The translations under genes and the position numbers were made by a program. The notes under the pieces were generated by a model, which was not told where the DNA came from, did not search any database, and saw nothing but the letters and a program-made list of their open reading frames with translations. Positions 22,191 to 62,700 of a DNA stretch of 64,000 bases are shown here, piece by piece. The DNA is taken from positions 12,365,453 through 12,429,452 of the forward strand of contig NC_087084.1 in NCBI RefSeq assembly GCF_026151205.1. The letters run 5' to 3'. The stretch comes from Bolinopsis microptera (taxonomy: Eukaryota; Ctenophora; Tentaculata; Lobata; Bolinopsidae). The stretch's first letter is position 1. The number at the start of each line of letters is the position of its first letter.

Positions 22191-22287
22191 CCAGTATCCA
22201 GGTCACGCCTTTATAAGTTTAGAAGCACGACCCTAATTTAATATTTTGAAACATGTTTCAACTCAACACTGATTTCTTCTGGACAAA

Positions 22288-36314: not shown

Positions 36315-36870
36315 GTGCCGACTGTAAGATGGTTTTTAAGCGCTAATTTCGGCGAGCACAAAATTCTTGAAACAAATGCGTATTGATTAACTTTCCCTTG
36401 ATCCAATTTTAACAAAAATTGGTAAACTTACTCATAAACTTACAAGGAAAGTGTCCAAATAATTTAAAGCATATCCAACCATTAAAAATTATGTTACAGC
36501 TAAAAGTAAAAGCAGCGTATTTTGCCCCATTTTCATCATTATGTCAACTTCGATATCCACCAAATTTTTCGGACAGTTGTGAAAGCCCTATTTTCAGAAT
36601 GATCTCATTCAAGGAACCGAAGATATATCAGAATAATACAACAAAAATCAACGAATTTGGTCAAATTACGCGACTTTAAAATTGACCATTGTTAATGATC
36701 GATCTGGCCCGGCACTTGCCATCAGGCCATTTCGAGAAGAAAGCGGCGCGCGCTACTTCGAAGAAATTTAGTCGAGTAACATCCGTCAACTTTAAAAAAG
36801 AAAACAATGGTACACAAATTTTTAAGATCCGAGCAAGTTTATTTTTATTGTGCACCCCCTACAGTAACAT
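36315..36870 (+). repeat. Dispersed repeat R4, copy 1
   Basis: Direct, diverged copy of about 42960-43435. Shared blocks include CAAATGCGTATTGA, TTCGGACAGTTGTGAAAGCCC and GTGCACCCCCTAC. No intact frame. It contains a further copy of the palindrome-end motif GCGCGCGCTACTTCGAAGAA near 36745. Confidence 0.75.
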
Positions 36871-36879
36871 TGTTCGTGC

Positions 36880-37270
36880 TGCTAGGCTACATTTAGTAGC
36901 AATGGGAACCCCATACCATCAGACCTTTGTATAACAATAAAATGTTCGAGATTCAATATTTTTAACAAAAAAAAGTTGATGTTGAATGTGCTGTTTGTTA
37001 ACCATTTATTCAGTATCAAAAAAGCTAAAATTTGACGGTGCTTGTGCTATCTGGATATTATAGCATAAATATAATGTAGTATGAGTTTGCTGGATAGGGC
37101 TAATAGCAATGGGAACCCCATTATATTAGACCTCTGTTAGTGTATAACAATGAAATGTTCGAGATTCAATATTTTGAACAAAAAAGGTTAATGTGCTGTT
37201 TGTTAACCATTTAGTGAGGCGTTTTTTTTTGTTTTAAAGTTTTTTGTTTGATTTTATTAGTCGTGTTAAA
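36880..37270. repeat. Inverted repeat R3, right copies
   Basis: Two diverged tandem versions of GGGAACCCCAT...TTCGAGATTCAATATTTT...GTGCTGTTTGTTAACCATTTA (about 36898-37015 and 37108-37225). Both are inverted relative to 28935-29240. Confidence 0.75.
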
Positions 37271-37504
37271 TTTGTGTTTATACAAAGAGGTTTTTTAAAA
37301 GGTTACTCGTATGTCATTCATGCCTCTAGTATCATTTTCACATATGCAGTTATTTGTCTGGGTCAAGAATTCATATTTGCGCTTATATTCAGGATATAAC
37401 GAGCAACCGATTTCATTCTCGGTATCATCTTGCATTTGCGGACGGTTATTCAAATTAATCTAAAAAAACTTTGCCAACAAAACAAATTTTTCCGTTGAGC
37501 TTTT

Positions 37505-38025
37505 ATTTAACTTTAACGTGAATTATAAAATAGTTGTAAGATAAAGGCTTTATTCTCTTACGCAGATCAAAGATCCATTTCAAACCCCAGTATTTTATCG
37601 CATTGAAGGATGAATTAAGGAGACATGTTTTCTCTGATGATTTTATTGACCACTGGGATCACATTATAAAGAGTTGCAATTCACGTGACTTATCTTGGTC
37701 AAGCGACTGAAGAACTTTTCTGATGAACTTGTCGTGGGTTGTTTTGAGAATATAGGTACAGCAGACAGCTGGAACACGTTTAATTCTAGTTCCACACGTA
37801 GCCATTTTCGACACGCAGCCATTTTCGACAGGTTGCGATTTCAACAGGGGTTATTTCCAGCAAACTTTAGCTGTCTAACTAGAGTGCGTCCCAAAGTAGA
37901 GCCCAGAACTACAGTTGCAGAATATAAAGCCGTGATTTTTAAGTGGATTTAATAAATTCATCATGCCCGCGAATCACGATGGTCTTTCATTTATTGAATT
38001 AGTGATCGAGCGTATCAAAAATTGG
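37505..38025 (-). repeat. Dispersed repeat R1, copy 2
   Basis: Inverted counterpart of 13560-14035, with about 80-85 percent similarity by eye over the aligned blocks. It ends about 200 bp before exon 1 of the GPCR gene. It keeps a minus-strand open stretch at 37659-37844 including KMATCGTRIKRVPAVCC. Confidence 0.7.
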
Positions 38026-38227
38026 AGTCTTTAGAAATTATCAATTATATTGTATTTTTCCTTTATCTTTAGCCACCAAAAAGCACAGTGCTGGCAAGCA
38101 CGACCACCGCCCTTCTACTCACCATACTATTTACCCCCTATCTGAGGGAACGGGAGACTATAAACACTTTTAGGTTTTGAGACACTCCTCACTATTTGAA
38201 ATCTACAGCATAGTTAAATCTGGAAAC

Positions 38228-41200
38228 ATGTTGCTGCTAATAGTTATACTGATACGATCTTTACATACTCTACCCGAAAGTGAGTATGTACGCTAGTTGT
38301 TTAGTGGGTATTCTTTCCAACGATTTCAGAATATGTTGTGGATTGTTGACAAGATTATTCTTAACTGACACAAAACCGTTGCTTTTAGAGTTTAAAACTC
38401 TGTCTTGACAGATTTAATTAGTTACATCAACTTCAAGGCATATCAGATATGAAGGTTTACGTGTCTAAGTGGCTGAAATCTCAACCTAATTTACCAGCAA
38501 GCAATTAATTTCTCACAAAATAATTTAAACAGGTAACGCAAAGTTTTACCTGCTCAACGGTGAGGGTGCACAAGCAACGAATGGATTTGGTGTCTTGTTC
38601 GTCCAGAAGGGCCAACTCTCGGGCCATGTTTTATTTGAAGGAAACAAAGGATTCGATCAAGAGTGTCTGCCGAACCACATATGCCAAATGATGGGGTACC
38701 AGTTTACAATAAGTTGGTTCTTAGATATAAAAACCGTTCTTGACACCAAGCGGAAATCTATGCATGCGTTTACATTCGACGATATTTTCTGTCCAGTGGA
38801 TAACAACGGCACTGTTAATGCGACGTTTAAAATAAAAAAGATAAAAGAAACAAATGTTTTTTCAACTATACCATATTCAGCTGTAGTCCTCTTCTGCGGT
38901 CCTTTTAAAAGCACTTGTCCAATCGTGGAGCGATATAATTTCCTTAAGAGAGTTTGTATTGAGGAATTTGGCAGCTTAGTATTTCAATGTCACTACTCTG
39001 ACAAGCTTTACATGGCCATACCCGGGTACCACCACTCTATATTTAACACCGTCTGCGACAACGACCCTCATTTCTATCAAAGCTGTGGTATCAGAAATTC
39101 ACTGACCTCATCAAACTCTGCTGCAATTTGTGACGAGTACGTCTGTGAAGTGAAAAAAAATGACGTCCTCCCGACGATAGGTGTTATGTCTACCGTCACA
39201 GTTTCTTCAGCGATGTTGTGCCAATTGCAATTAGCTGACCCAGCATTTGAAAATCTGCCCTATTCACAAAGCTGCTCCAATTTACCAGACAACATTTGTT
39301 TAGCAGAAAATGAAGAGGAAGATAAAGTTCATACAACTTTAACTTTAAGAAGCGGACTAACAGCGGGGAAGTCCTCAGTTTGCAATGGACGCTGTGATGG
39401 ACGTCATTGTGAGGACGAGGCTCTCTGTGGTGGCTATCTGTACGGTTTGTACTGCATTGGCTGGCAACAAAGACTCAATTACATCAAACCAAGTGAAGTG
39501 TGCGATGGGTCCTCGACGTACCTGTGTCTAAATGGTGAGGACGAAAGGAACTGTTCTGAACACGACTCCTTACCAAGGCACGAAAAATGTAGAAGGTCCA
39601 CCCTTAATATATTCACAGGAAGACAAACTTCTTCGGTGATCCCAATTATGAATATTACAAGGTGTGGCGCTCCATTCAGCTCTGCAGTATTAGTTGACCC
39701 TGTATCAATCTGTGATAACTTTCTAGATCAAACCAACTGTACAGACCAGAGCCGTTCAACACTAACCTGTTATATCAACGGCTATCTTTCAACCATATCC
39801 AAATTTGTTGTGTGTCATGGTCAAGAGGAGATTCCAACATTATGTGACAACGGAATAGACCAGGTCTGTGTCAGGGTATCACTCACCTGTGAGGTACATA
39901 AACACCAACTGTGTGACGAAATTGAAGATTGTCTGAGCGGGGCTGATGAAAACATAGCAATCTGTCGCTCCATGACAAAGAGGGTTTGTCACAGAGCTTA
40001 CAAGCCCGACCAGGCATTACAAATTCCCATTGCATGGCTAAGGGATGGGGTTGAGGACTGTTTAGATGCAATCGACGAGGAGGACGTGTGGCAAACTTGT
40101 GGCATTGGTTCAACAAAACGATTCGTAGTGTCAATAGATGAAACGTGCGAGGAGGTGTTTCTTTGTAAACATGATCAAGCAGCCTTCGTAGAATTTAAAA
40201 ATATATGTGATGGGATTGATACGTCATGTGGTATTGAAACAAATATATGTGCGAAGTCGCATAAGACCAATCCTACGTTTGACATTGTACTGACTGTGCA
40301 GAAATCAGGTGGAGAATTGAAAACTTTGATGTATTGCTTGCCTGGTCTCGAGAGTCTGCAGCAAATAGCAAATCGTTGCGTTATCAATGAAGTCAATCTT
40401 TCGGGACTTGATGTCTTTGGAGTTCAATCCATTTTGACAATTATCCGCCCTAACACAATAATTAACTGCGATCATACCTTTGGAGAAATTTACGTGACAC
40501 TGAGTTGTGCAGGGTATTGTGAAGACTCGATCTGCCCTTTGCAAAAAAGGGTCCAATACAATTCTTGTCCTCAGCAACACCCAAAAAGGATATACACAGT
40601 TGCTGATAATAGATTCCTTTCGTTCGTGACAAAAATAGGTAATAAGTCGTACAGAAATGACTATTTTCGATGCGACAACGGTGTTTGCTTAAACTATGAA
40701 CAAGTTTGCAACGTGGTCGATGACTGTGGGGATGGTTCTGACGAAATACTCTGTACTAATGTGTTTTTGTGTGATTCCAAAGACCAACTGGTCCCGATCA
40801 CTGAAAAGTGTAATGGAAATATTGACTGCATGGATTTCTCAGACGAGTGTAACTTACACTGTGGCAAACAGATATTACAAAGCATTTTTCTAAAGATTTT
40901 GAGCTGGAATCTAGCTGTGCTAGCCATATTCCTTAACTTGATTTCACTCTATCGAACTCTAACCGATTTCAACAAAGAAATGTCAAAAGTGGCTATGAAC
41001 AATAAGATGCTGATACTTCTCATAAATCTCGGTGATCTGCTGATCGGAGTGTATTTGATCTATATAGCAATAATGGACACGGTAGTTTATAAGAGTGGAT
41101 ACTGCTCCGAGCATATAAATTGGCTGTCTAGCGCTCATTGTAACATAATAGGCGTCATCAGTACGATTGGTTATGAAATGTCTCTTGTTTCCATGACAAT

Positions 41201-42137
41201 TCTTGCCGTAACTAGGTTGGGGGTGATAAAAGATAAGACTCGGATCAGCGAACGATTTACAAGAAGAGTCCTTTTCAAAATTAGTCTAGGTGCACTAATT
41301 ATCGTCATGATGTGTATTACTATTGCAGTAATTCCTCTGGTGCCTCAATTTGAAGACTTCTTTGTCAATGGCATGACATACAGACCCTCAGTAAGACTCT
41401 TTATCGGAGCTCCCGATAAACAAATCCACCTCAGCATCCTACAGGAGTACTATGGCAAAATTAAGGGCAAAAATCTTAAATGGAGAGTGATAAATGATCT
41501 TGTTGATGGTATGTTTTCTAATGATTATGGAGGTGATGTACTTGGTCGAAAGAAGATTGACTTTTACGGGAATGAAGGAGTTTGTCTATTCAAGTTTTTT
41601 GTTAAAGCAGACGATCCTCAACGAATTTATGCTTGGGGCATCCTATCATTAAACATGGTTTGCTTTTTAGTAATTTCAGTCTGCTACATTTTCATCAATA
41701 ATAGAACCAGAACCACGTCAAAAGTGCTTACCAAGGGTAAAACACATACAGGTCATGAAGTAAGGAAAAGGAACAGAAGATTGCAGCGAAAAATATCGCT
41801 GATCATAGCAACGGATTTTCTTTGTTGGTTACCAGTTACCATAGCTTCCTGTCTCCACTCGGGAGCAGTCATCGACGCTACACCATACTACTCTCTTATA
41901 TCCATAGTATTTTTACCTATCAACTCTGTAATCAACCCTATCTTGTACAACGATTTCGTTACAACCTTATTAGAAAAAGTCAAAGAAAAATCGAAACCAG
42001 TTTTTGCTAAGAAGTGGAGAAATAAAAAAGTTTCTCCTGAACAATTTAACACTACCTGTATCAATAAAAATGATTGTTGCCATGATCAAGTTCAAATGAC
42101 TGTGATGAAAGTTTTAAAAGCAAAGGATCGAAAATGA
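38228..42137 (+). CDS. LDLa-ectodomain class A GPCR with SRCR-like N-terminal domain
   Basis: Exons 38228-38279 and 38533-42137 join in phase 1 and give about 1218 residues. Exon 1 encodes the signal peptide MLLLIVILIRSLHTLPE. Residues about 20-135 (FYLLNGEG, CQMMGY, DDIFC) resemble a degenerate scavenger-receptor cysteine-rich domain. This domain is absent from the paralogue at 15576-22190. A shared cysteine-rich region and LDLa-like modules follow, for example CDGRHCEDEALC (about 304) and VCNVVDDCGDGSDE (about 742). Seven hydrophobic helices run from about 798 to 1155 with NPILY in TM7; TM3 ends TRL rather than DRY. The C-terminal tail is short (about 60 residues) and lacks the repeat seen in the paralogue. 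It is a cell-surface receptor of unknown ligand. The two genes share long identical runs, such as FEDFFVNG before ECL2. Confidence 0.88.
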
Positions 42138-42959: not shown

Positions 42960-43435
42960 CTGCTAATGGTTTTTTAGCGCTAATTTCGGCCAGCACAAAA
43001 TTCTTGAAACAAATGCGTATTGAGTAACCTTCTCTTGATCCAATTTTAACAAAAATTGGTTAGCGTTAGCTTACTTGTAGACTTACATTACTAGGAGACT
43101 TTTTCGGACAGTTGTGAAAGCCCTATTGAAAGGTCGTCACAAATTTTCAGAATGATCTCATTCAACTTTCAAGGAACCGAAGATATGACAGAATAGTACG
43201 ACAAAAATCAACGAATTCGTCATATTACGCCAAATTACGCACCATTTACACCTACTTTTGCTCCAAAAGCCTAGCCGCGCACCATTAAATATGGCACCTA
43301 TGCGAAACTTATTGATCAAATTTGGTACTGTAAAAAAGGTACTGTGAAAATTCTGATCTCACAGTCTCTAGAAAACAATGGTACAAAAATTTTGAAAATC
43401 CGAGCAAGTTTATTTTCATCGTGCACCCCCTACTA
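42960..43435 (+). repeat. Dispersed repeat R4, copy 2
   Basis: Direct copy of the sequence at about 36315-36870, with indels. The copies share GATCTCATTCAA and GAACCGAAGATAT. Confidence 0.75.
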
Positions 43436-43754
43436 ATAGTAATAAAGTCCCATTTATATTTCTAAACATATTCTTGATCCTTACACATCATACTATTGTG
43501 TGTTGTATCAAATTAATGGTTAAGTCTCCAAACTCATACATCATAGCAGAAAACACGTATTTTTGCTCGTAAGGCCTTAAGGCATTCTACTAATAGTAGT
43601 AGTACTATACTTATAGTACTAGTAGTACATACTACATTATTATTATGGTGTGATAATGATATGAATACTCCAATTTGGATTTGACGATAAAAAGCGTTTA
43701 AAACAAGACAATAAAATCGGAAAATTTCACTATTAAAATGGTGTCCCTTATAAA

Positions 43755-45839
43755 TCACTCATCAAATTGCAAGTCCTTAAAAACGATTTTGGTTGCTTCG
43801 GGTCGGTGACAGACCCTGCATCGGGACACGTAACTTCTTGCTTCTGTGAACGGTACCCTGGTTTCCTCCTCCGTGTATGGATCCTGAAGAGAGCAGGGTC
43901 AAAATAAAAGAAAAATTGAATCAACTTAACTTTAACGAAATGTGACCATTTTGATTTCATAAATGGGCTTGCAGATTAAACGTTTGAAAAGCTAACACTC
44001 GGCTCAAAACATATAAATATGTTATAGTCCATCTATACATCTTATATCTACCTTTTTCGAATCCATCTGCCATGACGTTTTCTGGTCGGAAGATTTAAAC
44101 TTGCAGCCCTCGACATCACACTCGGCTACAGCAGTGGGACTGTAGTACAATAGACACGAGGCTGGTTCGTCTGAAGTTGTTCAATAGTTACTTACGTATT
44201 GTATATATTATATGTAGTGGCCTTTTAATTTCATAGATTTTAAAATCATTTTGGACCAGAAAATATTTATTTTTAACAGCAGCACGTTAAAAGCTTTTCC
44301 TAAATAAAACAGCACAGATTTGATTAAAAGACTGAAAATCGGAGAAACGACAATCTGCACAATGTCATATTATAACTATATTATATTATAGACTGTTGTT
44401 ACTTTAAACTTTTTAAAAACTATTATCCTGAAAATGAGTCATATAATGTATAATAGCACAGCTCTCGGCAAGCTATAAACCCTCTCGGCTCTCATTGGCT
44501 GAATAATCATCCAATAAAGCGATAAGAAGGCGGCATGTTATAATCACTGACCTGTTAGCACTCCTATTGCATAGTTATCCAAGGACACTTCCCAGAAGCT
44601 GTAACCGATCCAGTCCTGTGATTGTGTTGCGGAGGGGATGAATCTGTTAGGAGAGGCTGCGGACACGTAGCTGAGAGAATATTTATCTTTAGAGAGAGAT
44701 TTATTTACCATTGATATTGCTAGATTGTGCCGTAACACAAAACACAATTGTTTTGTTAAATAATTGTTTTATTAATAAACAATAAAGAAAATCCGGATAA
44801 TATCACAGTGTCATCGCAAGGAGCTTAGGATTTCAAAACTTTAAGTTAACGTGCGTGCATACAGTTTTTTAAAGTAATTCTGTGGTACACTGTAAATGGT
44901 TATGAGCCGTTCGGCGGGCACGCGCTACTGCAAGCACGAGGGCTCTGGTTAGAGCAAGGTTATGAGCTTTCTCTCTTACCCATCAGGACAGTCAGGTACC
45001 GTGTTGGTCATACTGTGCACCACCACCATCTTAAAAATAGTGTCACACACCACACATCTAGATATCAGATTCAGCAGTTCTTCTCGTCTCGATCCCATCT
45101 TCAGCTTACCTGGCAAACAATAATGTTAAGTTGTTGAATCATGGTTATTAAAAAGGTTGTGTGTCTGTCATTCATGATACCAATTTACTCCCCATCTACA
45201 AACCAGAATTCAACCTCAACTTTGTACGGAAATAAGCAATTACATAATACAATATTATAGTTAATGTTATGATATTAATATTATAATATTAATATTACAA
45301 TATTAATATTACAATAAATAGTTAATATTATAATTATCTGTATATTTTGAATGAACCTCTGGGTAGTCGGCTGGAGCTGTCATCAGTTAGGAACTCCGGA
45401 GCAGTGGCCAGCCAGCTGAAATAAATTGTAAAATTAAGTTTTCAAAATAAAATAAAAACGTGTTTAAGGTTCAACAACATAACAATCTTAATTTCATTTA
45501 TTTATACGAATTTATTTAGCACTAGTTTGATGAATTTTTATTAGTTGTAGTTGTGGTACGATGGTGATCAGATATGACTTATCTTGTATACCTTTATAAC
45601 AGTAGCCAGTCAAAAGAAACAACAGTTACAAGGGCCGAGGCATTTGTAAATTTTTAATAATTTATTCTTTTAAAAAAAATTAATAAACGTTTAAAAAAAA
45701 GATGCTTACGTAGTCTTGTGACCCTCGTTGGCGGAAGAACAGCTGTCAATGGTGCACTGAGTATAAAAGCCAGGGTAAAACTCAGGTAGGCATGACCCAG
45801 GCTTTCCCAAGTCCTGACTCCATTTCGACTTTGAATCAG
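43755..45839 (-). CDS. Distal NC1 cassette of collagen IV unit A (alternative C-terminus or NC1-only gene)
   Basis: Minus-strand exons 45710-45839, 45357-45415, 44980-45109, 44552-44670, 44052-44170 and 43755-43883 join without a break into about 228 codons of collagen IV NC1 domain. The donor of the second exon (GTTCAT) is weak. Landmarks are DLGKPGSCLPEF and LISRCVVCDT in the first half, PDCPDG, IGYSFWEV, EPASCLLYY and YVSRCRVCHRPEATKIV in the second. It carries 11 of the 12 canonical NC1 cysteines. The missing one, with the start of the domain, is exactly what the shared first NC1 exon of the collagen gene (47886-48023) supplies. The entry phase (1) equals that of the proximal NC1 exon at 47242-47473. 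No start codon or signal peptide was found between the collagen stop (46511) and this block. It may be an alternatively spliced collagen C-terminus, or a separate gene with an unseen first exon. Confidence 0.75.
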
Positions 45840-46211
45840 CTGAATTTCATTTAGAGTCAGTGATATATAATGAATTTTAACAAACAATAATAAATCGTTA
45901 GAGAAAATCGAAAACGTTACCAGATCGATAATTTAAGAAAACTTACATTGCGAACCAGGCATACCCCTTTCAGACAGTCCATTGTATTAGAAGCTTGTGG
46001 AATGTGAACTGTTTCTTTTAGAAGTAGATATTTCACAATTTACCCTACGTGACCGTGTTTATTTGTAAATTAAAGCAAAGATCCATTATTTGAAGAAATT
46101 GTTGCGCGATTAACATACTGAATTGACCCAGTATGCTATTTTAAGGTACACTGTATGTTACCTTTTTCCTAATGCAAAAGATGGAGACAAAACAGAGACA
46201 AATGTGCCAGT

Positions 46212-46226
46212 AAAAGCGGCAGCGTG
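46212..46226 (-). promoter_or_regulatory. Complementary element A2, downstream of proximal NC1
   Basis: In the minus-strand transcript this reads CACGCTGCCGCTTTT. It is perfectly complementary over 15 nt to element A1 (47756-47770), which lies upstream of the proximal NC1 exons in the same transcript. Pairing would loop out both proximal exons. A promoter or protein-binding motif is an alternative. Confidence 0.55.
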
Positions 46227-46268
46227 GTTCGCTTGAAGCCCAGCCATCCGACCAGTAAGCGGCAACGT

Positions 46269-46306
46269 GTTGTCATGGAAACACGCGGGGTTGTCGTCAT
46301 GGAAAC
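46269..46306 (+). promoter_or_regulatory. Two X-box-like (RFX-type) motifs
   Basis: GTTGTCATGGAAAC (46269-46282) and GTCGTCATGGAAAC (46293-46306) match the imperfect inverted repeat bound by RFX factors, 24 bp apart. They lie between the stop codon of collagen A and the distal NC1 cassette, so they could be an enhancer or an internal promoter of a separate NC1 gene. Confidence 0.4.
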
Positions 46307-46510
46307 CCGCGGTAAAAGAATGAGGCCAACTTTCGGAAAAATATCAATCGATCAGCGAGTTTTGTTTCCCCTTCATACACCTCTTAATTCTCTGACGAAT
46401 CCAAGTTTGTAAACAAAATAGTCAAACAGTTGGCAATAAAATAAATCGGTTTGCAAAATATAAAAATGTTAGAATCTCGGTTAAAAGCCATAAAAAGTGT
46501 TCGTCAATCT

Positions 46511-49500
46511 TTATACGCGGTCGTTAGGAGAGAAGTAAACAATTTCTCGTTTTGTAGAGGTTCTCCTCATTACCACACATCTTCCCAGTTCGTTATCTCT
46601 GAATCTAGATCGAGCTACTCCGGACATCACGTCATTTATAATTTCACCATCGTCTAGGTCGTAGTTCCTCAGCTTTTCATAGTCGACGATCCAAAGTGAG
46701 GTTGGAGAGTTGGAAATCCATCTCACTTCTCGGCCATTTGTTTGCACAATAGAAACAGGCGAGAAGTATTCCAAACAGGAGCCGTGAGCCCCGAGTTCAG
46801 TTCCTGACCCTTCTCTCGCTCCACTTTGGTAAATGTAGCTGTATCCGGAGTATAATTCCGACCATCCGGCTGACACAAGTTTGTTCAGATTAGGCTTCTT
46901 GTTTCGGAAGCTGTGCACTGCCATGAGCTTGTAGTCACTTACACAAACAACACATCGGCTGAAAGAAAGTACAGTTCGTTACTAAGCGCTTACAAATCAT
47001 GGAGATCCAAGAAACTATCGTATTTATTTCTAATTCTCAAATAGATGATGGTTATCATGGAGGTCGGACGGGTGACAGTTTTCATCAAGTATCACTATCA
47101 GTTTAGTTGATTGGCTTCTATTATGAAACTACTGTCACCGCATCTTGTCCATCTCGTGTAAAATAACCACACTTTCAGAAAAGAACGCAATGAAAAATCA
47201 GTAAAATATTACTACAAATAAATAATCGCACTATATGATACCTGATATATTTCTTGATTTTTTCCGCATTATCCGCATTATAAGTCATGGAATCAGGATA
47301 CCAATCATCAACGGTCGCATCGTCAGGTATATCTGCAGTGGCCATCCAGAAGATATACTCGTTCTTAGACTCAATACAGGCAGCACTGTCACACAACTGT
47401 AGAGGGTTCATGTAGAACTCCCTCCAGCAAGACCCCGGCCGGGACAGACTTTGGGCTGACACTGATTTTGTAACTGGGAGAGGGTGGTGAGTTAGATCGT
47501 GGTGTGTATGGGGATAAGTTGACATGTTGGGACATAGCTTTAGTTGGAACGGGGAATCGTCAGATCATTGTCAGAATGGTGTGGGGCATCAACTCCAGGT
47601 GTTGTTGATAAAGGAGTAACTTGGTGTTTGAGCTTAGCAGGAAACGCTAACAAAACAATCGAGTAAACAAGCAAAGAAAGAATCAAAACTGCTGATCAAT
47701 CGAGAGGCAATCAAAATTTGATGGTCTCGCGCACAGAGGACTGTCTCCTTAAAAACACGCTGCCGCTTTTGGACGAACTTTTGGAATCGGAAAATGAGAA
47801 CGTTTCCTCTTATCAAGTTATCTAATTGATTAAATTAATACATTTTAATAGTATCATCATCAGGATTGGTTGGTTTTATACTTACCATCGACAAACATGA
47901 ACGAGTACCCCGTCCAAAGCTCAGTCATTCCATCGAAGCACTTTGGAGCGACGTTCTTTTGAGAGTGGAACGCCACGATGTAAGGATTCAGCTGGATGCT
48001 CTGGGCTGCTTCACCAGGTGCACCTTAGTTATAAAAGATATTGGATTAAGTTCTAAGTAGATATGCTCCCTTGAACACAAATTCGTCATCCATTTTATTC
48101 CAGTTATATAACTTAACTATGACAACGATAGAAACATTCATCAATATCTTAACCCTCAAAAATGCAAACCAGGATTCACGATTATCGGTTATTTCAATTT
48201 GAACGTCATTTTTACATACCAGCTCTGCCAGGTGCCCCCTTTTGTCCCCTTGCTCCTTTGACTCCAGCACCAGCGATACCCTTGGGCCCTGCGATACCTT
48301 TGATTCCAGGGATACCTTTGCCTCCTGTATCTCCTCTTTGCCCCATGACACCCTTTTCTCCTGTGGTTCCCTTGAACAAAATATATTGATTATTTTCTAG
48401 CAGTTACTTTTTTTGTGGTTTAAACGTTTTAAAACAATAAAATCTTAAATTTTAATAGAGAAAGACGTTTAAATACTTTAATAGAACTAAACTAACCTTT
48501 GTTCCAGGTGGTCCTGTGATTGTTTGACCATCACTGCCTCTGTCTCCTTGTCTACCTGGCATGCCTGAACTACCGGGATTACCATCCCTCCCTGGAGTTC
48601 CTGCTCTTCCTAAATCTCCCTTAGCTCCAGGTAAACCGTTTGTTCCTGGATTACCATTTGTTCCTGGAGGTCCAGGGTTTCCTCTTTGTCCAGTTGGTCC
48701 TGGTGGTCCAGCTGCACCGTTTGGACCAGCGGGACCTAAATCTCCAGGGGAACCAGGAGCTCCACTGAGACCCCTGTCTCCCTTCATTCCTTGCTGTCCA
48801 GCCCTGCCAGCCATTCCCTGAAGACCATTTTCCCCGGGTGGTCCAGCTATTCCTGGGTTACCGGATCTACCAGGGTCACCTTTTTGTCCTGCTGCTCCGG
48901 GCATACCAGGTCTGCCTAGTTCCCCGGGAGTTCCAACACCCGGTGTTCCAGGGACTCCAGAATCACCCTTAACTCCGAGAGCTCCAGCATTTCCGGGATT
49001 TCCTGGGTTTCCCTGCAAAACATTTAATTGGAATTGGCTAGTGGACTGAAATAAATATCCTGCGCCATACATAGAATGAGTTAAAACGTAGCAATTAAGT
49101 CTTGCACTGATACAGTGTCCTAGAACAGGTGTTAATGTGAAATATAGCTTACGTTTCTTCCAGGAGTTGCGTCTCGTCCCCTATCTCCCTTAGCTCCAGG
49201 TAGCCCGTCTCTTCCAGGAGTAGCTCTTCCAGGTGTACCCTTTCCTCCAGCCTTGCCAGGCGTTCCCCCATTTCCGGGTGACCCAGGAGGTCCTCGTGCT
49301 CCTGGGGAGCCCATCCTTCCTGCAGTTCCGGGATCACCGTTCTGTCCATTTAGTCCTGACTCACCTTTAGATCCTGGAGTTCCGGAGGTTCCAGGATTTC
49401 CTGGAATGCCTGCTTCTCCTTTTATACCAGCGGTTGAACCTCCCTAGAATAGAAAGAGAGTTGTGACAATGATTTTCAGAAATGATTTTGGAATGTGATA

Positions 49501-52500
49501 CAAGCATAGTTAATTTTACAACTCGAAGAAACAATATCATGACCAACTTACCGGTCGTCCGGGTAGACCAGATTCACCCTTGAGTCCGTTATTTCCAGGT
49601 GTTCCCGAGAAACCAGTCTCTCCTTTTGCACCGGGCAGTCCGTTAACACCATTGTTACCGATCCCTGCATCTCCCTTTTGTCCTGGGGAACCAGGCATTC
49701 CATTAGCTCCACGATCTCCCTTCCCTCCGAGAATACCATCATTTCCTGGTCGTCCTGGCTCTCCTCTTTGACCATAGTTGTTGATTGTCTCTCCCTTGTC
49801 TCCCTTCATTCCATTCATACCAGGATTTCCAGCTTCTCCCTGAAATTTGAAATACCTGTTACCGAAGAAACAAATTAAAAAAATTGTTATTTAAACCGTT
49901 TGACTTGAACGGTTAACTTCCCCATCATTATCCAGATCTATAAGCAATCTCTAAATATGACCTCACCTTCTTGCCATTTGTTCCAGTGATACTTTCTCCA
50001 GGTTCTCCCCTGGGTCCAACAGGTCCGGTTACAACAGGAGAGTCTCCTTTAGTTCCTGGAAGACCGGACGAACCATCCTTACCAGGTGTGCCAGATAACC
50101 CTGCATCTCCCTTCATACCGGGGAGTCCAGGATTTCCAGGATTTCCGTCCTTACCAGAGTTGCCTCTTCCACCGGGCCGTCCAGCGGCTCCGAGCAGACC
50201 TTGTAATCCCATGTCTCCTTTCTCTCCTCTTTGGCTCATTCCTGGAGCTCCTGGGTTACCCTTGGCGCCGGGGAGGCCGTTGTTACCAGGACGTCCATCT
50301 AAACCGGACAGACCGTTATTTCCTCGATCTCCTTTTTCGCCGGGTCTTCCAGGGATCCCAGCTGCACCAGGAGTTGCAGAAGGTCCTCTGTCTCCTTTAG
50401 CTCCTGCCAGTCCATTCCTTCCCTAAGTGTTTATAGAATTACAAGAGTGATAGTTTAATTATGTTTATTTATTGTTTAACTATTTTGTAAATAAATTCGT
50501 GTAAGATACTGAAAAACCTTTGATATCGATAAAAATTGTATCATAAACTTACATCATTTCCAGGTCGCCCAGGGAGACCGTCTTTACCAGGGTTACCAGG
50601 GTTACCGTTAAGCCCACCATCTCCCTTACTACCTGGCATACCAGGTAGACCGTCCTTACCAGCTAATCCTGGTTCTGCATCCCGTCCTGGTATACTTCTC
50701 CCAGCTTCACCTAAAATAAGGGTATACTAAGGTCCTTAAACTGAGAGAGCTGATATTACTTATTGGTGACATCAGACATGTCAGACGTGTAGGTTTGCAA
50801 AGTAGTTGGTAGGGTTTATTGTTGGTTTAAATAGTAGATTCTGACTGACCCTTAGCACCAGGGCGTCCATTTGTTCCAGGCAGGCCCCTGGAGCCCTTGT
50901 CTCCATTAAGACCGGAGGCTCCATCTGAGCCACGGTCTCCGTTTACTCCTGGTCTTCCAGGTAGCCCTCCATTTCCCTAAAAACAGATTTGATTATCATA
51001 TGCTGACTTCTGTAATACATTTTATAGATCCGGATTCCGGACTCTGAAGTAAAAACAGTGAAACGCTGATCTAGTGTGTTACAGATTTGTTCAACCCACC
51101 TTTCCTCCATTGAGTCCCGGTCTGCCTGCGTCACCCTTTGCTCCAGGGATACTTGTAGCATCTCGCCCGTTAGTACCAGCCTCTCCTTTACCTCCGTTCA
51201 AACCAGGGTTACCAGGGCTACCATTATCTCCCCTAGCTCCAGGGTTACCAGGCCGACCTGCCAGGCCACCTGCTCCTTTCATTCCAGGAGCTCCAGACAT
51301 ACCTGGATGTTGTTCAGATTGTCAGATATTTGGCTACTGCAAGTAGCCATGTGACCTCAAACTAGTCAACAGGAATCTCTTACGATGTAATGAAATAGCT
51401 AATAATAATAATATCAACTATCAAAACTATGCTCCATCTTAAAAATATCCTGAAGTATACGGAAGTGATTATGATTAATTAATTAACTAATTAACTAACC
51501 TCTCTCTCCGGGAGTTCCCATAGCTCCAGATAGACCAGGTTCTCCCTTTCCTCCTCTCAGTCCAGGAGTACCAGGGGTTCCAGCAGTACCTGGCTCTCCT
51601 CTGTTTCCTGGTAAACCATCACTTCCAGATCGACCAAAGTTACCCTTCGCACCGGGAAGTCCGGGGGATCCTGAGGTACCGCTGTCTCCTTTCGATCCAG
51701 GCAGGCCCTGAAATAACGAATTATCAAGTCGTTATTATGAAAAGTTGGAAAACTTGTATATTTATGGTAAGGATTTATAGTAAGAAGGCGAAATTTTTAA
51801 TTCAAATGACTTAAGAGTTTGTGCTAAATGACTTACAGCAGAACCAGGCCGTCCGACGAGTCCACTTTCTCCCTTTCTTCCGGGAACACCAGGTCGCCCT
51901 GGCTCACCGTTAGCTCCTGGGGTTGCTACTCCAGGACTACCTGCTTTTCCTGAGAAACCACGATCTCCCTTCATCCCCATCAGACCTGAAATGTTACAGA
52001 GATAAGTGATACACACTAAATATCTTGAAAGAATTGCAGTATTTGACTCAGAATGAGCCATAACGATTTGAATTTTGAAGTGTTCCAAGTAGATCGACAG
52101 TGACTATCATTTTGATCTTTAACAAATCTTCACAATTGTTTTATTCCTCTGAAGTCTCATCTAAAAGTAAAAACGCCCAGACCCACCAGGAGTGCCATCT
52201 CTGCCACCAGTCCCCGTATCTCCCTTCTCTCCATCTCTTCCAGGGGTTCCAAGCATTCCCGAGGACCCCTTTACACCAGGAGCTCCTACCACTGTGGCTC
52301 CTTTAGCTCCAGGCAGACCAGGACTGCCACGTTCTCCAGGGGATCCACCAAATCCTGGTGTTCCTCTGTCACCTGTGATAATAACGTTAGCACCAAAGCT
52401 GCTATAATTAACGATAAATTGTAATACAGTGTTCGGGGTTAGTCAAGTTAAAACTCGCTAAACCAGTATCTACAAATCATAATTCAGGACGTAGACTTAG

Positions 52501-55140
52501 TTAAGTAAATAAATATAATTGGTACCTTTCGTGCCAGGGAAACCGGGTTCTCCTTTACCTCCATCTCGACCATTTCCTCCTGGTAAACCATCGTTACCAT
52601 TCCGTCCTAACATACCATCTTTTCCTCTATCTCCCTGGATAAGATATTTCCGATCTTCAAATTAAGAAATATTATTCACAAGTTTTATTTACTACTGCAG
52701 TTCTACATCATTGTTTACAATTAAATAACACAGTTAACAATTTAGATTTTTAGTAATGATTAAGAAATAAAATGTAAAAAAATTAAAATCATATCAATGC
52801 TTAAAATTAAAAAAAGAAAACACATCGACAAACCTTGAAAAAAGAAATAAAAAATGAAAATAAAACAAACCTTGTCTCCAGGTCTACCATCAGTTCCCCG
52901 GCCTCCTTTGTCTCCAGATTGACCAGGCAGTCCATTCCTTCCTGGGGTACCACGAGCTCCCTTGGACCCCGGGAGCCCAGCCAGACTGACTGCAACTCCT
53001 GGCTCCCCACGATCACCTAGCGGTTATTAATTAATAATTAAGGGGTGTTGACTGTTGATTCAACTAAAGTGGGACTGTTAAAGGTATGGTACTGATATCT
53101 TAACAATCTGTAATCTTATTTATACGTCAACTTATTGGAGCCTCTGAGGAGGGTGAAACGTACCTTTTTCTCCGATTCCAGGTGCTCCAGGTCTTCCTTG
53201 GTCTCCTGGTAAACCAGGTGCTCCACTCTCTCCTTTAGATCCTGCGAAGCCTGGAGTTCCCTGAAATTATCGAAATATTATTGGATAACATTGACTGTTC
53301 CAGTAGTGCTCAATTAATAATACAGCTAGATCAAACGTTTTTTAATTGAAATGTAATGGGCATAAAGTATTAGCATTCTTTCTGTATGGTCATTAACTTA
53401 CATCTTTTCCAGGTAAACCATTAGCACCAGCTCTTCCACCATCACCCTTCAACCCATTCAACCCATCCTTACCAGGCATACCAGGCAGCCCCCTAGTTCC
53501 AGGGGTACCCCTGTCTCCTTTACCTCCTGGTAGACCTGCAGTTCCGTCATTACCAGAACGACCCGGCTCTCCTTGGTTGCCCTTCATTCCTGGGGCTCCG
53601 TTTCGGCCGTTAGTTCCTGGACTACCTTTCCCGCCATTAGATCCGTCCCTGCCAGGTTCCCCACGCTCTCCGCCTAAACCTCTCTCTCCAGGGCGTCCCT
53701 GCTCTCCCTTAGCTCCATCTATAGCAGCTCTACCAGGGTTACCATCTCTCCCAGAGGAGCCCTTACCTCCGGAAAGCCCCGGCTCTCCCACACCACCAGG
53801 AGTTCCAGGCTCTCCTGTGTCTCCTTTTAGTCCTGGAGCTCCAGCTAGTCCATCGTTACCAGGGTAACCTAGCTCTCCCTTTGTTCCGTTACACCCGTCA
53901 ACACCAGGAGTACCGGGGATACCGTCAACTCCATCCCGGCCAGGGTAACCACCTTGTCCAGCATCTCCAGATTCTCCAGAGGATCCCTGGGTTGGTTAAA
54001 AGGGAGGATTTTAATCAGCGCACTTCAAGTATGTAAGTTATCTAAAGGGAAACTTATTGAAACATTGCATTCACACGTACGAAGCAAGAAAGCAGAAATG
54101 TTAGAAAGAAAACAGGAATTATTTTGCACTTACTGCGGGCCCTCTGAGTCCTCTATCTCCAGGCAGACCGATTGGTCCTGGCTGACCTGCTTCACCCTGA
54201 ATCAGTACTTTTTATCAAGCGGGTAAAAAGATGGGTCTGAGGAGAGTGTTGTTTTTGATAGGACTTTTGTTTGATTTTAGCTTTAATTTAAAAATAAAAT
54301 TTGTATAATTAGTTTGCATTGTACTTAAAGTTGTGATTTCTGTTTATACAATTTATCATGCTCTTTGTTTATTTATATAAAAGTGAGATTTTCTATAAAT
54401 AGTGTTAACTTTGCAAGTATTTGTGAGATGTAAATATTTAAAATTAGGTATGTTTTCTTTTAATGAAGATGAGATGTTTGTTTTTAATGAACATGAGATT
54501 TGAAACGTTGCCAATACTAACAAATAATAATTGTGACTCCACTATTCTATAGTTTTAGAGAGTAGAAAAATTGCCATCCACGACGCTTGTTCATTCATCA
54601 TGTCTATCGTACTAACTTACTAAAAAACCTGTCTATGCGTCTCATCAATCTTATTTTCAAGAATACAAAAACTTTTCAAAAATGAAATATCAACTAACCC
54701 TGTCTCCCTTGATACCAGGAGAACCAGGAACACCGCGCTGACCGATCGTACCCTCAGAACCTGGGGGTCCGGGACTTCCTGGTCGACCCTGCGGGAGGTA
54801 TTATTATTAACTATCAAGTTAAGGGATATGAAATATATCGATTTTAAGTTGTAAAGTAATCTGTTTCAAATTCCTAAGTGGTGCCCCATCGTGTAAGCAA
54901 ATACACGATTTATAAATCAGGTTTTTGGTTGAAATTATAAAATTGCTTAAAAAAGGTACTCCTTCCGTAAAAGAAATAAATTTTCCAACGAATACTTATT
55001 ATTTATTGAAAACTACTTACTCGTGCACCCTTAATGTAAGGGGGTCTCTGCCCACAGTTATTACAAGCGGGATCAGCCTCTGCCTCAGCTTCAGCGCTGA
55101 CTAATCCAGCAAAACACACCAACAGTAACAGTGACCTCAT
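46511..55140 (-). CDS. Type IV collagen alpha chain, unit A (proximal NC1 form)
   Basis: Basement-membrane network collagen. Twenty-one minus-strand exons join in phase: 55021-55140, 54699-54788, 54134-54196, 53402-53986, 53164-53260, 52871-53016, 52526-52634, 52193-52372, 51837-51985, 51500-51707, 51100-51302, 50850-50976, 50553-50710, 49967-50422, 49552-49839, 49153-49443, 48497-49012, 48220-48370, 47886-48023, 47242-47473, 46511-46958; about 1584 residues. Exon 1 gives a signal peptide and a short CNNC segment in place of a full multi-Cys 7S domain. The collagen IV hallmark [10 protein letters not shown] lies in the fourth exon. A Gly-X-Y triple helix with interruptions follows, then NC1 from [14 protein letters not shown]. 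This NC1 has only 8 cysteines: the first half is complete (6), the second keeps only GSC and GRC. Its second half is a single exon. The start follows from the signal peptide. Confidence 0.9.
47756..47770 (+). promoter_or_regulatory. Complementary element A1, intron before proximal NC1
   Basis: CACGCTGCCGCTTTT on the plus strand, so the collagen pre-mRNA carries AAAAGCGGCAGCGTG. It lies in the 412-bp intron between the shared first NC1 exon and the proximal NC1 exon. It is the exact 15-nt complement of element A2 (46212-46226). Confidence 0.55.
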
Positions 55141-56979: not shown

Positions 56980-58718
56980 TTAAACTCTTTTCTTCGATTC
57001 AAAAGACCAGCTGCTTCCTTGAAGGACCAATTTCTTAGCTTCAGGTCTTCTGCAGACAGCACATCTCTTGAAGAATCTTTCGGAATCGTAAAATTCTATG
57101 TTGTTAATCTCTGATTCCTGAGAGATATTTTAAGTGTTAAAATCTGCACGCGACAATAAAATGTTAACGTTAAATCCAGACACCAATAAAATTGTACACG
57201 TGATCACTGTTAAATCTGTTTGCCAACCTCTCATTAATGAATTAAAATATTCAGCTGTTTTGTTACCTTATGACTTTATGAGTAGGCCAACAGTTACCAC
57301 ATAACCATCAGAGGTTCAAAAATTAAGAGGTCCCACATTAAGTTGAAACAGTTTCTCTAATCGTTCGTTCAACACAATTTAAACACTACTTTAAAACCAA
57401 TATCTCACCTCTCCCTCCTTCATCTGCCAGTAAGACTTAACAGTGCTGTCTTTAGAGATAGTGCACATTTCCCGCCCAGGAGCCATCTCTTTGCACTTAA
57501 CAATGGGCAACATTGAGAACTTGGTGAGACATGCCGCAGCAGACTCTGCAGGAGAAGGGGTTCATGTTAGGATAAAAATAGCTGCTTACTCAGCTATATG
57601 ATAATATGTAGCTTAGAAAGTCCTGATAATCTATGGCAGGACCGTCCTGACAGGAAGTCAATCATTGGGTGATAACTGGCACTTGCTATTGAGCAATAAA
57701 TTTGTCCAGAGGAGCTGCTAGACCAATATTATAATCTTAAAATCATAACAAGATAACACACCTGATGTAACGCCCAAACCGAAGTTTCCGTCAGATATCT
57801 GCCAGAAGCTGTACCCATACCAAGGTGTATCTGCATCTTGACAGTCTTGACCGTATGGAGCAGCTTTGCTGGGGACTCGTCTGTTTTCATCACCGGGGTG
57901 ACAAGCAACCTAAAATAATTGGTGAATTTATTTGATTGAGCAGTATTCAAGCCTGATGGGTGCTATAATCTAAAATACTTTGTCTTAAAGTTCAGTTGTA
58001 AAATTGAAATGCCTGTCGGATGCAATTCCAACGTCTCAAATCACGAAAGGCATACAGTCTACAGAAGTTAACAGCGAACATAATGCCAAACAAATTGAAC
58101 AGGATGATAAGACGCTAGAAACCTCATATTCCAAATACTCCTCTTTCCCCTCGGGAGTTACAACAATCTGATCCTCAGGACAGGAAGGCTGATCATCATC
58201 ACTGTGAACAATCACCAAACTGTAGATGCTCTCACACACTATACACCTGGAGATGTAGTTGTCTACCTCACTCATTTCCACCCAGGTGGAGAGGTTATCC
58301 ATGTAGTCCCTGTCTCCTGCCACGGCTAACCAGCTGGGGGTGTGGTTTAGTTTAACATTTCATTGGATTTATCTGGGGTACCGTTAAGATTAACATTTTA
58401 TTAGGGTCCCTGTTTGAATCACAAGTTTTACTTCAGATCATTGCTATTCAACACTTTTTTGGGAAATATTTCATTCATTTTCATTCAGAAATAGTGAAAC
58501 AACCAAATGCAGAACTGAATTTATCGGATTAAATCAACATAGCATTACACTCAAAACAACACTTCTTAATTTGTAAAACACTTACGCAGACTGATGTCTC
58601 TGAGAGTTCTTGCCGCAAGTAGTGGCGGTACACTCGGAGAAGAACGAGACTTTGAACTCTCTCATGCAACTACCAGGGTCTCCAAGGTTCTGCGCCCATT
58701 TTCCTGCTCCACTGCCAC
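56980..58718 (-). CDS. Distal NC1 cassette of collagen IV unit B (alternative C-terminus or NC1-only gene)
   Basis: Minus-strand exons 58586-58718, 58123-58333, 57762-57909, 57409-57545 and 56980-57117 join in phase into about 255 codons of NC1. Landmarks are NLGDPGSCMREF, YISRCIVCES, PSCPEDQ, YGYSFWQI, ACLTKF and FFKRCAVCRRPEAKKL. It has 13 cysteines: the 11 seen in the unit A cassette plus an extra pair (ACHPG, QDCQD) before the second GYSF. Together with the shared first NC1 exon (60930-61085) this makes 14. Entry phase is 1, as in the unit A cassette and in the proximal exon it would replace. The exon boundaries match the unit A cassette except that exons 2 and 3 of A are fused here, so the two cassettes are paralogous. 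No own start codon or signal exon was seen upstream to 59735. Confidence 0.75.
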
Positions 58719-59167: not shown

Positions 59168-59180
59168 GGCGGCAGCGTGG
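59168..59180 (-). promoter_or_regulatory. Element B2a, downstream of proximal NC1
   Basis: The transcript strand carries CCACGCTGCCGC preceded by GCAAA. This resembles element A2 and its flank (GCGAACCACGCTGCCGC), so it is the likely paralogous site. It is complementary over 11 nt to element B1. Confidence 0.5.
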
Positions 59181-59210: not shown

Positions 59211-59229
59211 CCTGAAGCGGCAGCGGGAG
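59211..59229 (-). promoter_or_regulatory. Element B2b, downstream of proximal NC1
   Basis: The transcript strand reads CTCCCGCTGCCGCTTCAGG. Its core CGCTGCCGCTT is the exact complement of the B1 transcript sequence, and AGGTT follows in both after a short gap. It lies 31 bp from B2a, giving two candidate pairing sites. Confidence 0.5.
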
Positions 59230-59734: not shown

Positions 59735-59740
59735 TTTATT
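59735..59740 (-). terminator. Poly(A) signal AATAAA overlapping the collagen B proximal stop codon
   Basis: On the minus strand the last codons read GAA TAA A, so the TAA stop lies inside AATAAA. If used, the proximal NC1 mRNA has almost no 3' UTR and ends well before the distal cassette. Confidence 0.5.
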
Positions 59741-62700
59741 CTTCATCGTAGTTGTCAGGTGTATCACTGTAGTAGTACATCCTCCTCTCTACAGACCTTC
59801 TCAGGACAACACACTTGCCCAGGTAGTTCTGGATAAAGTTGGCCCTGTCTGCGGCAGAGTCTACCTTGATGTTCTTATCCACTTGAGCACTGTTGTCAAT
59901 CAGCCACATGCTCTTAAAGTTAGAGCTAATGAACCTCACGTCTTTCTTGTAAGTTTGAGCAATCATTGTGGGAGTAAACTCTCTTCTGCAAGATTCATGG
60001 TCGAAGACAGCGTTTCCGAAGGCTCTTCCAGGGCCAACTTGCATGATGTAGCTGTAACCAGAGTAAACCTCTTCCCAGCCTTTTTGTGCGATTCTTGCCA
60101 TTTCGGGGGCGGTTGGTGGGCTGGCCGTGAAGGAATGGTATGAGACCAATTTGTAATCACTCACGCACACCACACATCGGCTGAAAACAGCAGTGTAAAG
60201 TAATTTGGTTAGTAGCAAGACGTTCTTATTACTAATTTTATTCACCATGATTAATGCTCTGCTTATGGACATAATTAAAGTATCAGTACTGTTACAAATT
60301 TTTGTTAAAACCTTATGTATTTATCACGTGCTTCTGCCACTCCAATATCGCCATCAGGGTAGAAAGCACTGCAAGACTGCTGTTTAGGCACACGGGTCGT
60401 CATCCAATAGGAATAATCCTGGTCACTGTTCAGACAGTTCTCTCTTTGGCACTTCATCACACTCATGGGGTAGAAATCTCTCCAGCAGGACCCCGGTTTG
60501 GAGAGATGCTGGCCAATAACCATCTTGTCAACTGAACAAAGATAAATTAGATGGAGCAGTTACTTTATAAGCGGCACACAGAAGATCAGCAAATGAAACC
60601 TTCTCAAGCACCCTCTCTCTCTATCAGATGAAGCGTTCTTTCTCTTGGAGACCTGGTGTCGAGGTTACTGAAGGAGCCCCACCCTCGTGAAACTCACGCT
60701 GCCGCTTGAAACAGGTTGAACTTGGCAGACTCAGCAGCCCCACTACCCAAGATCATGCATATCGTGCTGTCAATGACATGTCTCATCTCTCTTAATACGA
60801 GAGAGGTCAGATCTCTTGCAGAGGATGAGAAATGTTCAGGAAATATGAAAAGTAGCAGATCATATGAGGGTAACAAGTTGGGTAGCCTTATGCCAAGGAC
60901 AACGCTGGAAATCAGTAAATTTTACTTACCGTCCATGAACATGAACGAATACCCGGTCCAGAGCTCAGTCATACCGTCCAGACACTTTGGCGGGGTGGTG
61001 GTTTGAGAGTGGAATGCCATGATGTAGGGGTTCAGTTGGATGTTGCTTCCAGGGGGTCCAGGAAGACCAGTTTGCCCTCGGGGTCCTGGAATAACACATG
61101 ATGGTAGGTTAAAACTATCTCATTTTCATCTTTTAGCATGCTTAGGATTGAGGAATCCACTTGAAAAAAGACTTCGACAAAAATTACCTGGTGCACCAGA
61201 TGGACAGTCAGATGTATCGAAGGATTGTCCAGGAGGTCCCTTTATTCCCTTGATTCCGTCAATACCTGAGGGGCCTGGTGGTCCTCGGGGGCCACCAGAT
61301 CCATCAGCTCCGTCAAATCCCTGTTGTGTAGCAAAGTTACGGCTGGTATAAAGTTTAAAACATTCCGTGATGATTTGAAAGCAAAAAGATCCATGTCAGA
61401 GTAGACTCATCGACAAAATTATCATCAAAGATTACTTACAGGAGGTCCAGGGGGTCCTTGGCCAGAAGCACCATCTTCACCAGCAGCACCAGGGGATCCA
61501 GGGTTTCCTCTGGGACCCGAAGTTCCGTCTCTTCCGGCGTTACCATCATATCCACGGTCTCCTTTAACTCCTGGGCCTCCATCTTTACCGGGGCTACCGT
61601 TACCTCCAGGTGAGCCATTATTTCCTCGAGCTCCAGGTGATCCTGTAGTGAAACAAATTCAGTGAAGTTTTTGCTATCAAAATTCAAATGCTGAATTTTA
61701 AGCGAGTTTAATAAATTTTTATATTTGAAGCTCTGACTAGTTTCACAAAACAACTAAATTACCTGCAGTTCCCATAAGACCATCATTTCCAGGCAGGCCT
61801 GAACCTCCAGGGCTACCAGGATTACCAGAGTTACCCCTGTCTCCTTTTTGTCCATTTCTTCCAGGTGTTCCAGCACCTCCTTGTAGGCCAGGAGATCCTG
61901 CAGATCCGGGGCTTCCAGGGCTACCAGGTGTACCACTGTCTCCTTTCAGTCCCATGGCACCGGGAGAACCAGGTCGTCCATCATTGCCGTTTCTGCCATT
62001 GCCGTCTAAACCAGCTCTACCAGGTTCTCCTTTAGCTCCAGCTCCTCCTGGGGTTCCGGCAGATCCTGGGCTTCCCTGTGAGAAAAATGTTTTAAATTTT
62101 AAGTTTCTTTGAGGTTTGCTTTGCCGATAAGTATAAAAAATGTAGCTTAAGGACGACATTTACAATTAAAGATAAAGCAGACTTACAGGGTTTCCTGGAT
62201 TTCCATTGCGGCCAGCGAGTCCCTTCATTCCAGCAGCTCCATCTCTTCCAGGAATTGATCGCCCAGGGTCTCCCTTAGCTCCAGCCCCTCCAGGAGTCCC
62301 GGAAGATCCGGGGTTACCAGGACTTCCGCGAGCTCCTGGGTTGCCGCCCCTTCCGGGGCTTCCTTTGCCTCCGTCTCTGCCGGCGGTTCCAGGGTCGCCC
62401 CGTCCTCCAGGTGACCCGTTTAAACCATCTTTACCGTTAAGACCGGGTTCACCTTTAGCTCCACCTTGTGAACTTCCCTGAAAACAGATGTGTTATTTCA
62501 TATTTAAGGTAATGATTCAATTAGGAAACAATAAAGCTTACAAAACGTTATGAACAGATTAAAATGTATTAGTATTTAGAAAAGTCTTCAACTTACGGGG
62601 AGTCCTGCTCGTCCAGCGTCTCCCTTGAGTCCAGCACCACCATCTCTTCCATTCATTCCAGGTTCTCCCTTAGCACCTGAAGCACCAGGGGTACCTGGAG

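Follow-up and report, generated by a model that had tools for sequence, protein, structure and literature searches.

The NC1 domain at the C-terminal end of collagen IV governs chain pairing and the joining of chains into networks, as set out in the main text of PMC5395295. We analyzed a 64,000-nucleotide stretch of the genome of the ctenophore Bolinopsis microptera (the window, G000:C13:12365453-12429452; genome of 264.65 Mb in 232 contigs) that contains two neighboring collagen IV genes on the minus strand, units A and B. In each, a shared exon (S) is followed by a proximal NC1 block (P, exons P1 and P2) and a distal NC1 block (D, exons D1 to D6). Matches to the C4 domain profile (PF01413) are found at 48 places in the genome, counted exon by exon. 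The family resembles that described for ctenophores in the main text of PMC5395295: loci are many, genes stand in tandem on the same strand, the NC1 consists of a pair of C4 domains, one or more NC1 loci have no Gly-X-Y exons close by, and some collagenous regions (here those of L005, L007, L009, and L010) include ~40 non-collagenous residues. The same text describes one NC1 per gene, whereas units A and B each have two NC1 blocks.

The accessible parts of PMC6071210 and PMC11802352 describe mutually exclusive splicing by docking and selector sequences in Dscam exon 6, 14-3-3zeta, Mhc, and MRP1, and PMC11802352 also describes the looping-out of exons by complementary flanking introns in DNM1, FGFR1, and TBXT. 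As in docking/selector systems, units A and B have an element after a constitutive exon and complements upstream of an alternative exon, recognized here from sequence only. The described cases are exon arrays with one selector per variant, whereas here the alternatives are terminal multi-exon blocks and putative selectors precede only D1. Units A and B may work like docking/selector splicing, but because of these two differences we do not file them as a member of that class. As in the loop-out genes, complementary intronic elements flank the segment that would be skipped, but here that segment spans a pair of exons together with a stop codon and, probably, a polyadenylation (poly(A)) site.

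NC1 splice variants of human COL4A3 are said to truncate the NC1 rather than to substitute a second complete one. These variants and alternative last exons have in common with units A and B alternative 3' ends that alter the NC1, and replacement of the NC1 would set units A and B apart from the COL4A3 variants. In C. elegans let-2 the alternative exons reportedly lie in the collagenous region, not in the NC1; let-2 and our proposal both involve a collagen IV gene in which the choice of exons is regulated, but in different regions. We found no collagen IV gene with alternative NC1 ends in the literature searched, which covered titles and the starts of abstracts, with subscription papers mostly outside. 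The word stem "splic" is absent from the main text of PMC5395295 and from the accessible text of PMC12141075.

Two NC1 blocks in each of two tandem genes

In both units one donor, that of S, faces two acceptors that share a phase, and behind each is an open frame with its own stop codon. From this layout we consider it likely that A and B form a tandem pair of collagen IV genes, each with alternative 3'-terminal NC1 blocks. The original prediction had proposed two alternative NC1 C-termini for unit A, with a distal block that lacks only the part encoded by S and is entered in the phase of S. Exon coordinates, boundaries, frames, and phases were re-derived from the sequence and agree with it: all modeled introns are GT..AG, the S donor reads ATG/GTAAGT, the proximal and distal blocks are both entered in phase 1, and the distal frame is open throughout. 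Counted from the start of S, S+P has 271 residues and 8 Cys, and S+D has 273 residues and 12 Cys, the predicted number. The NC1 of unit A is preceded by 17 open Gly-X-Y segments (48215-54800), and the likely first coding exon of the gene is downstream of the unit B distal block.

Unit B, which did not figure in the original prediction, repeats the S-P-D design on the same strand and turns one odd gene into a conserved layout. Its frames are open, and S+P and S+D contain 9 and 14 Cys, respectively. Eight open Gly-X-Y segments lie around or before its NC1 in the window, and the unit runs on into the adjoining locus L033. The intron between D2 and D3 is present in unit A and absent in unit B.

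All four spliced ends have two PF01413 stretches each (127.4-145.2 bits, cut-off 27 bits). In unit A, S+P scores 145.2 bits, S+D 134.8 bits, and the distal block alone 89.5 bits. Both units thus combine the two features taken to define collagen IV, a C-terminal NC1 of two C4 domains and interrupted Gly-X-Y upstream in the same gene. S+D of unit A aligns with an NC1 chain of known structure (8tys_A) in a single stretch (residues 14-258, E 1.4e-30), and the junction of S and D1 is in normal register when compared with 8txn_A (30 residues against 29, one gap). The same four Cys of the second C4 domain are missing from both proximal blocks, namely the one after HS..P, the small-loop pair, and the last of RC.VC. 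In the disulfide pattern of the NC1 these four make up two complete bonds, and for this reason the proximal NC1 looks derived but tidy, not decayed.

The two units are 71% identical in amino acids over S (45 codons), 43% over P (215), and 39% over D (216 aligned codons). All three alignments score far above shuffles (300 each); for the distal block the score is 341.5 against a shuffle maximum of 7.0. Synonymous sites are saturated between A and B and the dN/dS ratio is unusable, therefore Cys, Trp, and open frames were taken as the measure of constraint. In S+D, unit B keeps 12/12 Cys and 6/6 Trp of unit A, along with 7/13 Gly, 9/17 Pro, 7/14 Phe, and 4/11 Tyr. In S+P it keeps 8/8 Cys and 5/7 Trp.

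These figures bear on the possibility that a neighboring collagen gene lost its front and left the distal block behind as a decaying relic. A tandem collagen IV array makes truncated copies likely, and a broken one exists on contig C5 (L034), a recent, rearranged, partial copy of the unit A distal block. This copy shows how fast an unused block breaks: young as it is, it has one inverted exon and 7 gap columns in D3 and another 7 in D5, with the frame broken in both. The distal blocks of units A and B, in contrast, retain open frames and every Cys at 39% block identity, which bears out the selection on the distal block that had been read from its frames and makes a relic the least probable of the explanations considered. 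The C5 copy (G000:C5:12259001-12269000) matches positions 36405-40699 and 43272-45295 of the window, the region downstream of unit A; D3 is the inverted exon, D4-D6 are present, and S, P, D1, and D2 were not found in its 10 kb. Whole-genome searches with both D blocks gave no further complete D block among the candidates scored, and the C5 copy was otherwise the only close match. The P block of unit B, used as a genome query, returned the P block of unit A and otherwise only distant C4 exons.

An in-frame stop is found just upstream of the D1 acceptor in both units (TGA at 10 nt in A, TAA at 28 nt in B), thus the distal block must be entered by splicing. One way to do so would be the addition of a spliced leader at the D1 acceptor, with the distal block as a downstream cistron, and spliced-leader trans-splicing is widespread in ctenophores according to the accessible text of PMC8527503. 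However, the first in-frame Met of the block (D residue 68 in A, 19 in B) is inside the domain, so that no complete secreted NC1 would result. The leader of Hormiphora was not found in the genome at up to 3 mismatches, and the species' own leader may differ. We regard such a cistron as very improbable.

Another explanation, improbable to a lesser degree, treats the distal block as a standalone NC1 gene that has a promoter of its own and an unrecognized first exon. The main text of PMC5395295 reports that ctenophores have standalone NC1 genes, with signal peptides. The locus L012 has an NC1 without a visible Gly-X-Y exon in 9 kb, and the D blocks group weakly with it (74/47). However, the part encoded by S has a separate exon in the L012 model, whereas the D blocks of both units miss exactly this part and enter in the phase of S. 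No S-like NC1-start exon was detected in either spacer between P2 and D1 (the best scores were 23-28, whereas shuffles averaged 23.8-25.3 and scored as high in 24, 29, 154, and 48 of 200 cases; the true S exons score 173-214). On four control collagen loci the same search gave best scores of 42-83, not always at the S exon, therefore a very divergent S-like exon could escape it. The spacers (671 and 1017 nt) also contain no ATG frame of at least 10 codons with a strong phase-1 donor. One ATG frame before D1 of unit A (at 45982) is followed by GTAAGT, and was set aside as its phase is wrong for D1. A separate upstream first exon, named in the original prediction as the finding that would overturn it, was therefore not seen in the spacers, to which the search was confined, and a distant exon is possible. 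L012 itself (C1:19758001-19767000) is a candidate standalone NC1 gene.

The choice between terminal exons that had been proposed for unit A accordingly gains from the layout of the paralog, the stops before D1, and the empty spacers, and also from a complementary pair of elements that flanks the proximal block; together they support, at the level of sequence, a probable joining of S to either block.

A complementary element on either side of the proximal block

We found GCGGCAGCGTG in the intron between S and P1 of both units and its complement twice, one copy mismatched, in each spacer before D1. Comparison of the non-coding sequences of A and B gave one common 13-mer in the S-P1 introns and one common 14-mer in the spacers, and the two are complementary over 11 bases (15 within A). 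The longest word common to both introns and to the complement of both spacers is thus 11, while 1000 dinucleotide shuffles gave at most 8 and a same-orientation control gave 6. With up to one mismatch, GCGGCAGCGTG or its complement is found at 6 sites in the 64 kb of the window against 0.07 expected. The 265-Mb genome search returned 20 exact copies, compared with 4 for the reversed control pattern; 4 of the 20 are the collagen sites of A and B, and 16 are scattered, with flanks unlike the collagen ones. The exact element is absent from all 16 other C4-bearing loci examined. A transposon origin was considered and rejected, given the dissimilar flanks of the 16 other sites. The scattered sites L022, L023, L031, and L032 have mutually similar flanks and may represent a small repeat unrelated to collagen.

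The arrangement of the three putative elements is nearly the same in the two genes. The distances from dock to selectors are 1497 and 1540 in A and 1478 and 1526 in B, and those from selectors to D1 are 430 and 387 in A and 509 and 461 in B. The predicted helices of unit A reach -31.6 kcal/mol (15 bp) and -30.5 kcal/mol (15 bp with one G-U), and neither was beaten by any of 60 shuffles; those of unit B are 11 bp each (-26.8 and -25.4). Apart from the element, the intron and spacer sequences of the two units have no blastn match to each other better than E 0.08. With the similarity of the flanking sequence gone, both arms of the element seem to have been kept by selection. The core is identical in A and B, with one G-U and one mismatch among the selectors of the two genes. 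Unit A has an additional 13-nt complementary stretch (47691-47703 with 46344-46356, -22.2 kcal/mol), which is outside the five best helices of unit B.

We propose that joining of S to P1-P2 would probably be the default, followed as long as the dock is not paired with a selector. Pairing of the dock in the S-P1 intron with a selector in the spacer before D1 would loop out about 1.5 kb, the whole proximal block with its stop, and would bring the S donor to roughly 500-730 nt from the D1 acceptor, so that S could then be joined to D1-D6. Either route would give a complete two-C4 NC1 with its own stop codon. The choice would put a canonical NC1 of 12 Cys (14 in B) or a derived one of 8-9 Cys on the same chain, and the different NC1 disulfides and surfaces could lead to different partners or cross-links. 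Whether read for or against, the evidence leaves RNA pairing as the switch between the NC1 ends at about even weight in our judgment.

Both S donors score well (60th and 93rd percentile of the reference donors), the P1 acceptors score 3.0 and 2.6, and the P1 donors, at 1.5 and 0.8, are weak. The reference set of 66 donors and 69 acceptors was picked mechanically around Gly-X-Y runs and favors G at +1. A proximal AATAAA is found in A at 46063, ~450 nt past the stop, and in B at 59740, overlapping the stop codon, the weight of both being limited by the frequency of AATAAA in this AT-rich stretch. For a selector to act, transcription must have passed through the spacer before cleavage at the proximal 3' end, and the timing of poly(A) cleavage could therefore be part of the control. 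Two other products were considered and set aside. Back-splicing of P1-P2 into a circle has P2 ending in a stop, with no modeled donor. Hybrid splicing from P1 to D2 would keep the frame (both phase 2) and encode part of the first C4 twice, and we judge it unlikely.

If the proposal is true, a gene that swaps its NC1 would give one collagen IV chain two assembly fates, and the same triple helix could enter two networks of differing disulfide or partner chemistry, a layer of basement-membrane diversity that we did not find in the literature searched. It would also extend structure-guided splicing beyond the named insect and vertebrate cases to a lineage near the base of the animals, with docking/selector-like splicing existing in early animals and acting on 3'-terminal exons.

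Block history and the weighing of the pairing

An NC1 tree was built from 16 rows and 200 columns, with 12 other loci modeled by a simple spliced aligner, the exon models of which may contain some errors, chiefly toward the ends of L012, L015, and L016. The rows do not include the partial L001 and L002 or L014, which is close to L016, and they combine L011 with L010. The proximal blocks of A and B form a clade (100/98) that joins L015/L016 (93/86). Clades uniting the proximal and distal block within each gene are rejected (p-AU 7.5e-4 for A and 8.6e-6 for B), therefore the dual layout is most likely older than the split between A and B, and both the P and the D block most likely predate it. 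On the relative age of the blocks, D has the 12 canonical Cys and more introns, and P groups with two other collagen genes. The S donor site (phase 1, after GYSFMFVD) coincides with an intron of L003 (after GYSLVMLE). The D4/D5 intron was considered as a match to an intron of other loci and dropped, being ~12 residues further on.

Several results weigh against alternative ends controlled by pairing. In the tree, the grouping of the two distal blocks is weak (73/67) and on a long branch, and a tree that unites the four blocks in a single clade is not rejected (p 0.20). The D1 acceptor of unit A is weak (0.4, below 69/69 reference acceptors) while that of B is fair (7.7, 31st percentile). In unit B a purine/pyrimidine-repeat helix (-28.7, reached by 1/60 shuffles) is more stable than the dock-selector helix (-26.8). 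The whole-intron duplex of unit A is no better than shuffles (17/100 as low), which is uninformative because long regions always pair, and ungapped helices were used instead. No selector precedes P1; all are before D1. Two genes are too few for covariation, and the element was noticed before testing, so the shuffle figures are no planned test.

A possible reading, which we hold with less than even confidence, keeps the alternative ends and has the elements act otherwise, either as protein-binding sites in DNA or RNA (enhancer, insulator, or splicing factor) or as old terminal inverted repeats. In the latter version an element would have carried the proximal exons into the intron between S and D1. 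The elements are indeed inverted on either side of the P block, as terminal repeats would be, and the clustering of P with L015/L016 rather than with D is compatible with an insertion. Among the collagen loci checked the element is common to only these two genes, so that covariation cannot show pairing. On the other hand, a joint clade of P and D, which is not rejected, argues against insertion of P. The scattered genome copies, with flanks dissimilar to the collagen ones, also speak against this reading, as do the near-equal geometry of the three elements in A and B and the lack of any A/B blastn match better than E 0.08 around arms that seem selected. For the pairing proposal taken as a whole, in which two collagen IV genes choose a complete NC1 by long-range loop-out RNA pairing with arms kept since their divergence, we see an even chance of its being correct.

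Feature coordinates and neighboring loci

Table 1. Exons and putative pairing elements of units A and B (positions in the window).
Feature	Position	Strand	Remarks
Unit A likely first coding exon	55021..55140	-	ATG at 55140; signal-peptide-like, judged by eye
Unit A shared exon S	47886..48023	-	end of collagenous region and first part of NC1; phase 1
Unit A putative docking element AAAAGCGGCAGCGTG	47756..47770	-	S-P1 intron
Unit A proximal exon P1	47242..47473	-	
Unit A proximal exon P2	46511..46958	-	stop 46513-46511
Unit A putative selector 1	46257..46271	-	15-bp helix with dock, one G-U
Unit A putative selector 2	46212..46226	-	15-bp perfect complement of dock
Unit A distal exon D1	45710..45839	-	phase-1 entry
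Unit A distal exon D2	45357..45415	-	
Unit A distal exon D3	44980..45109	-	
Unit A distal exon D4	44552..44670	-	
Unit A distal exon D5	44052..44170	-	
Unit A distal exon D6	43755..43883	-	carries stop
Unit B shared exon S	60930..61085	-	donor GTAAGT, phase 1
Unit B putative docking element AAGCGGCAGCGTG	60695..60707	-	S-P1 intron
Unit B proximal exon P1	60312..60531	-	
Unit B proximal exon P2	59736..60180	-	contains stop
Unit B putative selector 1	59215..59227	-	11-bp helix with dock
Unit B putative selector 2	59169..59179	-	11-bp perfect complement of dock
Unit B distal exon D1	58586..58718	-	phase-1 entry
Unit B distal exon D2+D3	58123..58333	-	no intron between D2 and D3
Unit B distal exon D4	57762..57909	-	
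Unit B distal exon D5	57409..57545	-	
Unit B distal exon D6	56980..57117	-	carries stop

Other collagen IV loci are found on the same contig. L014 (C13:4.51 Mb, minus strand) and L016 (C13:12.47 Mb, plus strand) are near-identical collagen IV 3' ends ~8 Mb apart in opposite orientation, and L016 is oriented away from unit B, in the manner of a head-to-head pair. L006 (C13:11416629-11417300) is a collagen IV gene with its NC1 in a single intronless open frame. Within the window, long plus-strand frames at 16041-22184 and 38529-42131 match LDL-receptor class A and rhodopsin-family 7-transmembrane domains. The part at 19119-22202, inside the first of these frames, is repeat-like in minus-strand translation.

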